This document shows, in pieces, positions 14,457-22,062 of a stretch of 39,855 nt of DNA. Below the pieces are notes generated by a model. That model searched no databases and was not told the DNA's origin. It saw only the letters and a program-made list of their open reading frames with translations. The DNA is from Fibrobacter succinogenes (GTDB lineage: Bacteria; Fibrobacterota; Fibrobacteria; Fibrobacterales; Fibrobacteraceae), in assembly GCA_902768715.1 (NCBI GenBank), contig CACXMH010000016.1, forward strand, positions 1 through 39,855, read 5' to 3'. Made by a program: the position numbers and the translations under genes. Position 1 is the first letter of the stretch. Each line of letters starts with the position of its first letter.

Positions 14457-16025
14457 TTATTTCCGCCAGCCTTCCATAATCTTCATGCAACCGGCGAGGA
14501 GTTCGAGAGAGCGCTCCTTATCGCCGGTTTCTACGTAACAGCGAAATTCCGGAGCGTTTCCGCTGGGCCGCAGGTGCACGATATCGCCGGAATCGAATTC
14601 CATGCGGTAACCGTCGGTCTCGTCGATGGAGACGATATCGCCGTGGAAGGGTGCAGGCATGTTGCCGTTTGCATCGGGCTTTGCAAAACGGCTAGGCTTT
14701 GCGGTAAGGGCGCCAAAAAGTTTCTTGCCCAGTTTTTGCTCGCGGATTTCGGCTAGCTTTGCCTTAGAGGTTTCCGTCGGGAATTCCTTGAGACGGTCGC
14801 TGAGCGTAAAGCGCTTGGGGAGCTTTTTCAGCAGGTCCACCACGCACATCCGCTCTTCCCGGACGCGCACCATCACGGCAAGCATCGGGAGCAGGGCGTC
14901 ACGGGTGGGGAGTGCCGGCAGGGTGCGGGTCACCCGCGTCTCGTTACCGCTGCTGTCACGTTCCGCAAATTCCCTGGTCAGGTCCGTCTGCAGCAAGAAA
15001 CCTCCGTTAGCCTCGTAGCCCGCCACAGATATGGACTTGTCAGAAGCGTCCACCAAGCTTTCCATACCGGCAATCACGTAGGGGCTGCCAATACGGGTGC
15101 GGCAGATCTTCTCAAAGCTGCCCGACTTTTCAAGCGACGTGTTGCAACTCACGGGAGTTGCAATGCGCTGGATACCCAGCGCCTGGGCAGCGAGGATGCC
15201 CAGCACGTCGCCCCTGAGCCACATGCCGGTATCGTCCGCCAAGAGCGGACGGTCAGAATCCCCGTCGGTACTGAAAATGGCATCCACAAAATCCTTGTGG
15301 GCAAAATCCCGAGCCAGTTCTTCGTCTTCTTTACGGATGGCCTCGGTATCTACCGGAATAAACGTCTCGCTTCTGGCAAAAGGCTTCACAGTAGCGCCCA
15401 GGCTTTCCAAAACCCTCACCACAATGTCGCGGCCCACGGCAGAATGCTGATAGACCCCGATGGTAAGCCCCGAAAGGGCTTTGCTCCCGAAAAATGCGGG
15501 GTAGCGTTTTAGGTAATTTTCTTCGGCCTCGGTTTCAACCGCCGGCAGTTCCGGCGCCGACTTCAGCATGCCTGCCGCATCGAAAATCGATTCGTCAAAA
15601 TCTACGGACTGGGAAACGATTCCCTGTTCGTCTTTCTTGGAAATTTCACCCTGGGGGTGGTTGAACTTGATGCCGTTTCGGTCTGCAGGAATGTGGCTCC
15701 CCGTCACCATAATGGTGGGGAGTGCCTTGTCGATGCCGTATAGTGCAATGGCCGGGCTCGGGATACGACCGCAATAGACCACCTTCCAGAAGCTGTCCTT
15801 TCCCGCTTGCACCAGGGCTTTCAGAATCCGTTCGGTACTGGGCCGCAGGTCGCCCGCAATGGCGATGGTGTGTTCGCACTTGTAGCTGGTCTCGCAATAC
15901 TTGATAAATGAGCGGGCATACACGTAGCACACCCGGTCCGTCATGGCAGTCACAAGCCCGCGGGCACCGCTAGTGCCAAATGCCACACCGGACTCTTTCA
16001 TTACCTCTTGCATTGTAACGTTCAT
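14457..16025 (-). CDS. Alpha-D-phosphohexomutase (phosphomannomutase/phosphoglucomutase family)
   Basis: 522 residues. Interconverts hexose 1- and 6-phosphates. All four family motifs are visible: N-terminal F-G-T-S-G-A-R-G at 16-23; the phosphoserine loop V-T-G-S-H-I-P at 107-113 with S110, followed by R-N-G-I-K; the metal-binding D-G-D-S-D-R at 254-259; and the C-terminal phosphate loop R-P-S-G-N-A-P-E-F-R near 490. The TGSHIP variant of the usual TASHNP is seen in some phosphomannomutases. The order fits a standard four-domain mutase. SD AAGAGG lies six bases before the ATG. Likely supplies sugar nucleotides for glycan synthesis; the preferred substrate cannot be told from sequence. Confidence 0.88.
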   Translation of the reverse strand: MNVTMQEVMKESGVAFGTSGARGLVTAMTDRVCYVYARSFIKYCETSYKCEHTIAIAGDLRPSTERILKALVQAGKDSFWKVVYCGRIPSPAIALYGIDKALPTIMVTGSHIPADRNGIKFNHPQGEISKKDEQGIVSQSVDFDESIFDAAGMLKSAPELPAVETEAEENYLKRYPAFFGSKALSGLTIGVYQHSAVGRDIVVRVLESLGATVKPFARSETFIPVDTEAIRKEDEELARDFAHKDFVDAIFSTDGDSDRPLLADDTGMWLRGDVLGILAAQALGIQRIATPVSCNTSLEKSGSFEKICRTRIGSPYVIAGMESLVDASDKSISVAGYEANGGFLLQTDLTREFAERDSSGNETRVTRTLPALPTRDALLPMLAVMVRVREERMCVVDLLKKLPKRFTLSDRLKEFPTETSKAKLAEIREQKLGKKLFGALTAKPSRFAKPDANGNMPAPFHGDIVSIDETDGYRMEFDSGDIVHLRPSGNAPEFRCYVETGDKERSLELLAGCMKIMEGWRK

Positions 16026-17473: not shown

Positions 17474-17652
17474 AAGATTACTCCTCTTGTAAGTTTTCCA
17501 ACAAGTTAGCATTTCCACCCTGTTTTTTCAACCACTTAATGCCCAAAAACCGCCTTTTGCGATATATTTATGGACATATTTGTGGGATTTGTCGCTTATT
17601 ATGGCAAAATTTCGGCATTTTTCCTTGTCATGCATTTTTTCTGTTTTTTTAT

Positions 17653-17681
17653 TAGACAGTTAAACTTTTTTTTACTATCTT
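17653..17681 (+). promoter_or_regulatory. Promoter of the CBM48-like gene
   Basis: TAGACA (17653-17658), 17 bp, TATCTT (17676-17681). Predicted start near 17688, just before the AAGGAGAT ribosome site of the gene at 17710. Confidence 0.55.
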
Positions 17682-17709
17682 TGGCGCGGACTAAGTAAAG
17701 GAGATAAAA

Positions 17710-18114
17710 ATGGCAAAAGCTACTGCAAAAACGACAAAGGCCCCCGTTGCCAAGAAGGCTGCCGTAAAGGCTGCACCGGCAAAGAAGACCGCCACTAAGG
17801 CTGCCGCCCCCAAGGCCGCCAAGCCTGTTGCCGAGAAAAAGGCTGCCGTAAAGGCCGCCCCGGCAAAGAAGGCCGCCCCCAAGGCCTCCAAGAAGGTCGC
17901 CGTGGTGTTCGAAGCCAATTGCCCCCTGGCCACTACCGTTTCCGTTGCCGGTTCCTTCAACAACTGGGCTATCGACAAGGACATGCTCAAGAAGGACAAG
18001 AAGACCGGTCTCTGGGTCGGCAAGGTGACCCTCGACTCCGGCGTTTACGAATACAAGTTCGTCTGCGACGGTCAGTACTGGGACGAAGGCGACAACAAGA
18101 TCAAGCACGTGTAA
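17710..18114 (+). CDS. Small glycogen-binding (CBM48/AMPK-beta-like) protein with Lys/Ala/Pro-rich tail
   Basis: 134 residues. Residues 1-62 are almost only Lys, Ala, Pro, Thr and Val, with repeated K-A-A-V-K-A-A-P-A-K-K units, like bacterial histone-H1-like tails. Residues 63-134 form an isoamylase-N/AMPK-beta type carbohydrate-binding module: V-A-G-S-F-N-N-W near 79-86, L-W-V-G-K-V-T-L, and Y-E-Y-K-F-V-C-D-G-Q-Y-W-D near 111-123, with the tryptophans that stack on alpha-glucan. No signal peptide, so it is cytoplasmic. No catalytic domain. Strong SD AAGGAGAT and terminator suggest high expression. Role unknown: glycogen binding is likely, and the tail may bind nucleic acid or other polyanions. 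Confidence 0.82.
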   Translation: MAKATAKTTKAPVAKKAAVKAAPAKKTATKAAAPKAAKPVAEKKAAVKAAPAKKAAPKASKKVAVVFEANCPLATTVSVAGSFNNWAIDKDMLKKDKKTGLWVGKVTLDSGVYEYKFVCDGQYWDEGDNKIKHV

Positions 18115-18138: not shown

Positions 18139-18170
18139 CGCCGGGCCTATCGCTCGGCGTTTTTCGTTTT
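18139..18170 (+). terminator. Rho-independent terminator after the CBM48-like gene
   Basis: Stem CGCCGGGC (18139-18146) / GCTCGGCG (18152-18159) with one wobble pair and a 5-nt loop, then TTTTTCGTTTT. Confidence 0.82.
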
Positions 18171-18284: not shown

Positions 18285-19547
18285 ATGACAAACTATTCTA
18301 TCCCCCAAGAAGTTTTCGTGAAGGCTGCCGAACAGTACGGCACCCCCCTCTGGCTCTATGACCGCGCGACGATTGAAAAGCGCGTGAAGGAAGTCCAGGT
18401 TTTCGATACCGTTCGTTTTGCCCAGAAGGCATGCCCGAACCTCTCCATCGTAGCGCTGGTGCGCAAGTTGGGCGGCGTGGTCGATGCCGTCTCTGCAGGC
18501 GAAATCGTGCGTGCCCTCAAGGCGGGTTTCAAGGGCGGCCAACAGAAGGGCAAGGCTCCCGAAATCGTCTATACCGCAGATATCTTCGACAAGGACGCGC
18601 TTGAACTCGTGAAAAAGTACGATATCGCGGTGAACGTGGGTTCCCCCGACATGATCCAGCAGCTGGCCGATTTCGGCGTGAAGTCGGAACTCACGCTCCG
18701 TGTGAACCCGGGCTTTGGTCACGGACATTCCAGCAAGGTGAATACCGGCGGCCCGCTTAGCAAGCACGGCGTGTGGCACGAGCAGATCAAGGACTGCGTC
18801 AAGCTCGCGCAGGCAAACGGGATGTGGATTACAGGACTCCACATGCACATCGGTTCCGGCTCCGACTTCGAGCACCTCTCGCAGGTTTGCGACGCCATGG
18901 TCGATGCTAGCCGCCGCCTGGGCTCTCACCTCCGCACCATCAGTGCAGGGGGCGGCCTCCCGATTCCGTACCACGAAGAAGACAAGGGTAACCGCATCGA
19001 CATGCAGGCCTACTACGACCTGTGGGACAAGGCCCGCAAGAACATCCAGCAGAGCATCGGCCACGAGGTTCACCTGGAAGTTGAACCCGGTCGCTACCTG
19101 GTGGCCGAAAGCGGTTATCTGGTGGCCGAAATCCGCGCCGTCAAGAAGCAGGGCGACAACCTGTTCTACCTGCTTGACGCGGGCTTTACCGACCTGGTGC
19201 GCCCGAGCTTTTACGGCAGCTATCACGGCATTTCTATTATCGCCCGCGACGGTCGCGAGATGAACGAGATGGTCGATGCCGTCGTGGCAGGCCCGCTCTG
19301 CGAATCCGGTGACGTGTTCACGCAGGAAGAAGGCGGTTTCGTGGTGACCCGCAAGCTCCCGAAGGCAAAGGTCGGCGATCTTTTGATTCTCCATGACGCA
19401 GGCGCCTATGGTGCGGCCATGAGCAGCAACTACAACAGCCGCCGCTATGCCGCCGAGACCATGTACACGAACGGCGAGCTCAAGGTCATCCGCGAAAGGC
19501 AAACTTTCGAACAGCTGTTGCAGAACGACAGGGTCATCGACCTATAA
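18285..19547 (+). CDS. lysA: Diaminopimelate decarboxylase (LysA)
   Basis: 420 residues, fold type III PLP decarboxylase; last step of lysine synthesis. PLP lysine K48 is in R-F-A-Q-K-A-C-P-N (usual F-A-V-K-A-N). H-M-H-I-G-S-G-S, A-G-G-G-L-P-I-P, the E-V-E-P-G-R phosphate/substrate segment, G-P-L-C-E-S-G-D with the cross-subunit cysteine, and the C-terminal D-A-G-A-Y-G all fit LysA. The GGGLPIPYHEED stretch suggests the subgroup with an altered specificity helix, so ornithine/arginine-type or carboxynorspermidine decarboxylases are weaker alternatives. No SD before the ATG; possibly leaderless. Isolated from other lysine genes. Confidence 0.83.
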   Translation: MTNYSIPQEVFVKAAEQYGTPLWLYDRATIEKRVKEVQVFDTVRFAQKACPNLSIVALVRKLGGVVDAVSAGEIVRALKAGFKGGQQKGKAPEIVYTADIFDKDALELVKKYDIAVNVGSPDMIQQLADFGVKSELTLRVNPGFGHGHSSKVNTGGPLSKHGVWHEQIKDCVKLAQANGMWITGLHMHIGSGSDFEHLSQVCDAMVDASRRLGSHLRTISAGGGLPIPYHEEDKGNRIDMQAYYDLWDKARKNIQQSIGHEVHLEVEPGRYLVAESGYLVAEIRAVKKQGDNLFYLLDAGFTDLVRPSFYGSYHGISIIARDGREMNEMVDAVVAGPLCESGDVFTQEEGGFVVTRKLPKAKVGDLLILHDAGAYGAAMSSNYNSRRYAAETMYTNGELKVIRERQTFEQLLQNDRVIDL

Positions 19548-21987: not shown

Positions 21988-22062
21988 TGGACGGTACTGG
22001 ATTTGAACCAGTGACCTCTGCCGTGTGAAAGCAGCGCTCTAAACCAACTGAGCTAACCGTCC
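21988..22062 (-). tRNA. tRNA-Val (anticodon CAC)
   Basis: Minus strand: acceptor GGACGGT pairs with ACCGTCC; D arm GCTC..GAGC; anticodon stem CTGCT/GGCAG around loop TTCACAC, anticodon CAC (reads GTG); T arm ACTGG-TTCAAAT-CCAGT; discriminator A. The 3' CCA is not encoded. 75 nt without CCA. Confidence 0.95.

Follow-up and report, generated by a model that had tools for sequence, protein, structure and literature searches.

Adaptors built on a CBM48 domain and basic protein tails are each already known, and tails rich in lysine, alanine and proline can also be nothing more than linkers or solubility tags. To our knowledge, neither the chlamydial histone H1-like proteins Hc1 and Hc2 nor other bacterial proteins with Lys/Ala/Pro tails carry a carbohydrate module. 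For the AMPK beta-subunit (AMPKβ), the available part of the source names W100, K126, W133 and N150 as critical for glycogen binding (PMC4032982), and mutation of the two equivalent tryptophans of the plant protein PTST (Protein Targeting to Starch), Trp217 and Trp255, is reported in the accessible portion of that paper to abolish its binding to starch (PMC4339375). Fibrobacter succinogenes, the gut species considered here, is described as making and degrading glycogen in all growth phases (PMC10308913), as showing high expression of a phosphorylase and two glycogen synthases at any growth rate or on any substrate (PMC6204037), and as forming rosette alpha-particles, which are also reported for E. 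coli, M. tuberculosis and S. venezuelae (PMC8116748), all as stated in the available excerpts of these papers. Because of this glycogen turnover, these expressed glycogen enzymes and these rosette particles, a glycogen adaptor would have a clear cargo.

The window analyzed here, a stretch of 39,855 nucleotides, belongs to a draft genome (2.84 Mb, 95% complete) and carries at 17710-18114 of the forward strand (ATG at 17710, stop at 18112-18114) a gene for a protein of 134 amino acids and 14 kDa. In this protein, a Lys/Ala/Pro tail (residues 1-62, 17710-17895), recognized by composition and lysine spacing and predicted to be disordered, is followed by a CBM48/AMPKβ-type domain (residues 63-134, 17896-18111) assigned by Pfam, fold and residue alignments. 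The original prediction of an open reading frame at this position with a CBM48-like domain fused to a 62-residue Lys/Ala/Pro tail is borne out by the sequence and by Pfam, and so is its description as free of a catalytic domain, since the Pfam search found none in the 134 residues. No signal peptide was seen by eye in the N-terminus, which agrees with the cytoplasmic location proposed there and led us to reject a secreted carbohydrate-binding protein. The whole protein has a computed pI of 9.9 with 28 lysines and no arginine, the domain alone (residues 63-134) one of 5.7, and a close match with 98% protein identity exists in an uncultured Fibrobacter sp.

A Shine-Dalgarno sequence (AAAGGAG, 17697-17703, forward strand, read from the sequence) precedes the start, and similar sites precede the orthologous starts, some of which were picked partly by this motif. 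A probable promoter (17653-17683, forward strand) is formed by TAGACA at 17653-17658 and TATCTTTG at 17676-17683; a sigma-70-type scan found one site, versus 0.6 expected, with a pair that overlaps the probable promoter and scores 9 of 12. An element TAnnTTTG, which we take to resemble the Bacteroidota -7 box, falls between -45 and -18 relative to the start codon in 32 of the 44 distinct upstream sequences compared from Fibrobacter-type loci, versus a mean of 0.85 and a maximum of 4 in 200 base shuffles. In the window and among these 44 sequences, TAGACA or TAGCCA is followed by a TACTATCTTTG-like sequence, which is this same element. Downstream, a hairpin with a T-run resembling an intrinsic terminator (18139-18169, forward strand) separates the gene from lysA, and the window holds three such sites versus a mean of 1.5 in shuffles. 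An antisense reading frame (17599-18108, reverse strand) found no support.

Binding of alpha-glucan by the CBM48 domain is well supported by homology. The Pfam model CBM_48 matches residues 63-130 with 28.9 bits (cut-off 22.4), and AMPK1_CBM (PF16561) matches residues 74-123 with 35.9 bits (cut-off 26.8). An AlphaFold2 model built from 23 sequences has the CBM48-type beta-sandwich fold with moderate confidence (block means of pLDDT 62-80 in the domain); Foldseek ranked glucan-bound SEX4 (E 2.5e-4) and the AMPKβ CBM (E 3.4e-4) at the top, and VIA-align superposed 68-72 residues of the model on SNF1 and AMPKβ (Z 8.7, 2.2-2.3 Å). Chains bearing CBM20 came next in VIA-align with Z of about 7.5-7.8, less than 1 from many AMPKβ rows, so that the family assignment draws on both sequence and fold. 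In the alignments, Trp86, Lys116, Trp124 and Asn129 are the counterparts of AMPKβ W100, K126, W133 and N150; in the ungapped AMPKβ match, Trp124 is displaced from W133 by one residue towards the C-terminus, and this second tryptophan is retained despite the shift (DGQYW versus FDGSW).

The same residues recur among the relatives. In an HMM search over all loci collected, which picked up GH13-type domains and untailed relatives as well, the column of Trp86 holds tryptophan in each of the 81 distinct domain sequences, a count that leans this way because the HMM was built from 16 sequences that all have the first tryptophan; the second column holds Trp 73 times, Tyr 4 times and Asn once and is gapped in 3, and Lys116 is kept in 66 of the 81, the remaining 15 all lacking the tail or being built differently. 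The column of Asn129 is split by a loop indel, and we drew no count from it. The pattern YxYK..D..W is kept in 71 of 73 tailed proteins, the two exceptions, with tyrosine at the second site, both coming from one other family (f4), and all tailed proteins read from the family of Fibrobacter match both glucan-stacking tryptophans of AMPKβ. The original prediction had been staked beforehand on the conservation of key aromatic residues among orthologs, and counterparts of both tryptophans were indeed found in the tailed proteins of the family; its proposal of a glucan-binding domain likewise holds as an assignment from homology, modeled fold and conserved binding residues. Compared with other genera, Fibrobacter and its nearest genera are about 13 residues short in the loop that precedes the last strand, a loss that would presumably remove the position of AMPKβ Leu146 and, as far as the alignments go, might change affinity.

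The fusion itself is not confined to the genus. AMPK1_CBM was matched in 65 of the 67 Fibrobacter genomes, in 24 of the 27 that belong to other genera of the same family, and in 2/2 of each of two other families (f2, the second family of the order, and f4); the five misses inside the family all fall in genomes that are 71-80% complete. The survey matched 104 of 150 genomes overall, with 0 of the 10 listed for the sister family f3 and 26 further unmatched genomes that are not named. The tail was present in 17 of 17 other-genus proteins read, out of the 24 matched, and in both proteins read from each of f2 and f4. Tail and CBM48 domain thus recur together in genus, family and order, which shows that the arrangement is not due to chance and answers the question of whether relatives share it.

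Other architectures were seen as well. More distant Fibrobacterota have arrangements that are untailed, that combine a cysteine-rich N-terminus with a membrane helix, or that contain amphipathic helices. Five loci of the second type (L073 and L115-L118) show by eye a cysteine-rich, anti-sigma-like N-terminus, a membrane helix and CBM48, Pfam itself reporting the CBM48 domain of L115 alone. In the same class as Fibrobacter, a non-catalytic protein (L074, 3707-4435, forward strand) joins AMPK1_CBM (61 bits) to a stretch of helix that reaches 20.7 bits with the Apolipoprotein model, under its cut-off of 90. Outside the phylum, Candidatus Omnitrophica contig CAJBYM010000051.1 (L060, 1447-2565, forward strand) encodes a ParA-type ATPase (175 bits to AAA_31) that carries AMPK1_CBM (54 bits) at its C-terminus, possibly a glycogen-positioning ATPase. 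In Pseudarthrobacter, L064 (7545-8453; by Pfam) and L066 (by sequence) combine a sub-threshold N-terminal Mrr_N match with a Lys/Ala/Pro linker and a pullulanase X25-type domain (71 bits).

As regards glycogen enzymes, GlgC is present in the genome, GlgB is the only other CBM48 protein found, and the best GlgA match spans the model but reaches 156 bits versus a cut-off of 328, so that we call it a glycogen-synthase-like protein. We rejected a requirement of the tailed protein for glycogen synthesis because the GlgB model matches in all 60 genomes searched (this one included), also in those without the tailed protein. GlgB was over the cut-off in 53 of the 60, and in 9 of 10 genomes of family f3, in which no tailed CBM48 protein was seen. 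The gene adjoins lysA and does not lie in a glycogen operon. Two genes upstream lies a phosphoglucomutase/phosphomannomutase-like gene (14457-16025, reverse strand; named by eye), kept in near relatives, whose product could feed glucose-1-phosphate to glycogen.

The tail is conserved in composition. Tail statistics were drawn from 73 distinct tails with 5,473 residues, collected by a motif containing the first tryptophan; L122, which has the same architecture with AGAFNNW, and three proteins of family f7 (L095, L112, L113) did not match this motif and stand outside the set. As the 73 tails are related by kinship, the figures that follow are descriptions and not independent tests. Tail length ranges more than threefold, from 37 to 134 residues, with 1,609 lysines (about 29%), 5 arginines and 189 Asp plus Glu in total and a net charge of +10 to +37 per tail. 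The lysine fraction varies less than binomially (standard deviation 0.025 versus 0.053), the longest gap between Lys/Arg residues averages 5.7 residues versus 10.5 in shuffles, and the charge per 10 residues is even (Fano factor 0.13 versus 0.60). Arginine is wholly absent from 53 of the 73 entire tailed proteins. In the genus-type proteins of Fibrobacter, 47 of 48 have no arginine anywhere, in tail or domain. An internal repeat of 50 nt at 88% identity in the tail DNA suggests that gain and loss of repeats probably change the length of the tail without disturbing its charge pattern. In the AlphaFold2 model, pLDDT is below 50 over most of residues 6-59, and there is no helix.

The reading that we prefer, and to which we would give about half of our confidence, is that of a non-catalytic cytoplasmic adaptor for alpha-glucan, that is, for glycogen particles, which would resemble PTST and whose tail would reach out to polyanions. 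In this adaptor, Trp86, Lys116, Trp124 and Asn129 would dock the CBM48 domain on alpha-1,4-glucan chains at the surface of the glycogen particle, a step for which family, fold and conserved residues argue strongly. The tail, evenly spaced, almost free of arginine, lysine-rich, predicted to be disordered and conserved in composition rather than order, may then make multivalent, salt-sensitive contacts with nucleoid DNA, ribosomes/RNA or polyphosphate, and in this way the protein would coat glycogen particles and position or cluster them. Judging by its even charge, predicted disorder and conserved composition, it is reasonable to suppose that the tail binds cytoplasmic polyanions, and its sequence would suit DNA, RNA or polyphosphate alike. 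Counting against the adaptor are the persistence of GlgB in family f3, the lack of glycogen-gene neighbors, the lost loop, the tyrosine in the two f4 relatives, the moderate confidence of the model and the use of such tails elsewhere as mere linkers or solubility tags.

The strongest competitor, although we consider it rather unlikely, reverses the roles of the two parts: a nucleoid- or RNA-binding protein would compact DNA or RNA with its tail, while the CBM48 domain would read the maltodextrin or glycogen level and modulate the tail. Its attraction lies in the H1-like composition of the tail, and this much of the histone-H1-like tail of the original prediction stands; the likeness does not extend to the HC2 models, which score far below their cut-offs (12 bits versus 135 on the window protein and 21.2 versus 40 on the relative L090). 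A search of its own genome with the tail found only itself at E <= 1, in a 95%-complete draft and with score corrections for biased composition that could hide weak cases, and we accordingly rejected the tail as a common tag of the organism; that no second such tail was found would suit a specialized nucleic-acid binder. CBM48-type domains are also joined elsewhere to possibly DNA-associated modules, but these foreign fusions come from one contig and two related contigs and have other architectures. The protein also has no folded DNA-binding domain, and the length of its tail differs more than threefold among relatives.

Somewhat less probable still is a charged brush or particle glue, in which the tail, by binding acidic proteins, would space glycogen particles or bridge them into alpha-particles and would have neither a nucleic acid nor polyphosphate as partner. 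The rosette alpha-particles reported in the available part of PMC8116748 fit this idea, and the basic tail together with the acidic domain could self-associate.

The gene neighborhood gave rise to a different kind of explanation. lysA (18285-19547, forward strand; TIGR01048, 359 bits, cut-off 298), encoding diaminopimelate decarboxylase, is the ancestral partner gene. Among the 17 genomes read from other genera, 15 have its start between -8 and +30 nt relative to the stop of the tailed gene, and 9 of these 15, from several genera, show an overlap of 8 nt (lysA starts were extrapolated where the tblastn match began later than residue 1); in both genomes of family f2, lysA lies 10-11 nt downstream. 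It was not found within the fetched 1.1-1.5 kb in two other-genus genomes (G072, G133), nor in the two stretches read from family f4. In the genus, lysA is downstream on the same strand in 30 of 44 loci (the stretch often being just 1.5 kb), within 260 nt in 25, and longer stretches place it 1.6 to 6 kb away in four genomes (L055, L133, L134, L135). From these arrangements, the pair goes back to the ancestor of the order and has come apart to some extent in Fibrobacter; through this pairing, the tailed gene is probably expressed together with a housekeeping gene tied to growth. In three genera, one of them Fibrobacter (L126, L128, L133), a ribulose-phosphate-epimerase-like gene, named by eye, lies divergently upstream; this arrangement is not seen in this window. 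No riboswitch or other known RNA was found upstream of lysA at Rfam gathering scores, the sole Rfam match in the window being a tRNA (21988-22062).

One could imagine that the lysine-rich frame is a leader that reports lysyl-tRNA supply to lysA, or a lysine store made together with LysA, as the conserved position upstream of lysA, the 8-nt overlap and the strong preference for lysine over arginine in the tails would suggest. We consider this improbable, because the folded CBM domain is conserved far beyond the need of a leader, the tail stays in Fibrobacter although the distance to lysA there runs from 48 nt up to some 6 kb and, in the window, includes a terminator-like hairpin, family f4 keeps the tail in stretches that lack lysA, and stalling at lysine shortage would lower lysA, which is the wrong direction. 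The least probable explanation, that the CBM48-like domain has given up glucan binding and is now a module for contacts with other proteins, LysA among the candidates, draws on the ancestral pairing and on the shortened C-terminal loop in Fibrobacter and the nearest genera, but has against it the binding-site residues kept across the family, including the second tryptophan despite its one-residue shift.

Returning to the glycogen adaptor, a link between glycogen and nucleoid or ribosomes, as the original prediction conceived it, is possible. The bolder proposal of a dedicated bacterial glycogen organizer that ties particles to nucleoid or ribosomes, with CBM48 joined more than once to DNA-associated parts (the lysine tail here, the ParA-type ATPase in the Omnitrophica contig), seems doubtful to us; if it were true, bacteria would place glycogen and share it out at division much like other cargo. 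A conserved, non-enzymatic candidate in an organism for which rosette glycogen and constant turnover are reported would make particle assembly and placement testable with a single protein. Among the best-ranked papers of the literature searched, with subscription papers mostly outside it, we found no report of CBM48 with a lysine-rich tail as a conserved bacterial protein.

Compared with known systems, the tail resembles chlamydial Hc1/Hc2 and other bacterial Lys/Ala/Pro-rich tails in composition. Stand-alone bacterial CBM48 proteins (L063 from Bacteroidetes; L075, L084 and L114 from Fibrobacterota) share the domain without a catalytic part, but they have no basic tail and a longer C-terminal loop. 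With the AMPK/SNF1 beta-subunit the domain shares the fold, the signature SFNNW...YKF..DG.W and the counterparts of W100, K126, W133 and N150, whereas it differs in having no kinase complex, in the loop of about 13 residues missing in Fibrobacter, and in its fusion to a lysine-rich tail. Like PTST, as far as the accessible part of its description goes (PMC4339375), the protein is non-catalytic and has a C-terminal CBM48 domain with two key tryptophans and an N-terminal region suited to interaction. No PTST-type N-terminal coiled coil was found in it, as no helix is predicted in residues 1-62, and the tails of the genus contain 0-2 residues of F/W/Y/I/L/M/G/H/N/Q beyond the start methionine and therefore form no heptads. 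Thus, where the coiled coil of PTST carries granule-bound starch synthase according to the same partial account, the Fibrobacter protein has at its N-terminus a Lys/Ala/Pro tail that is predicted to be disordered.
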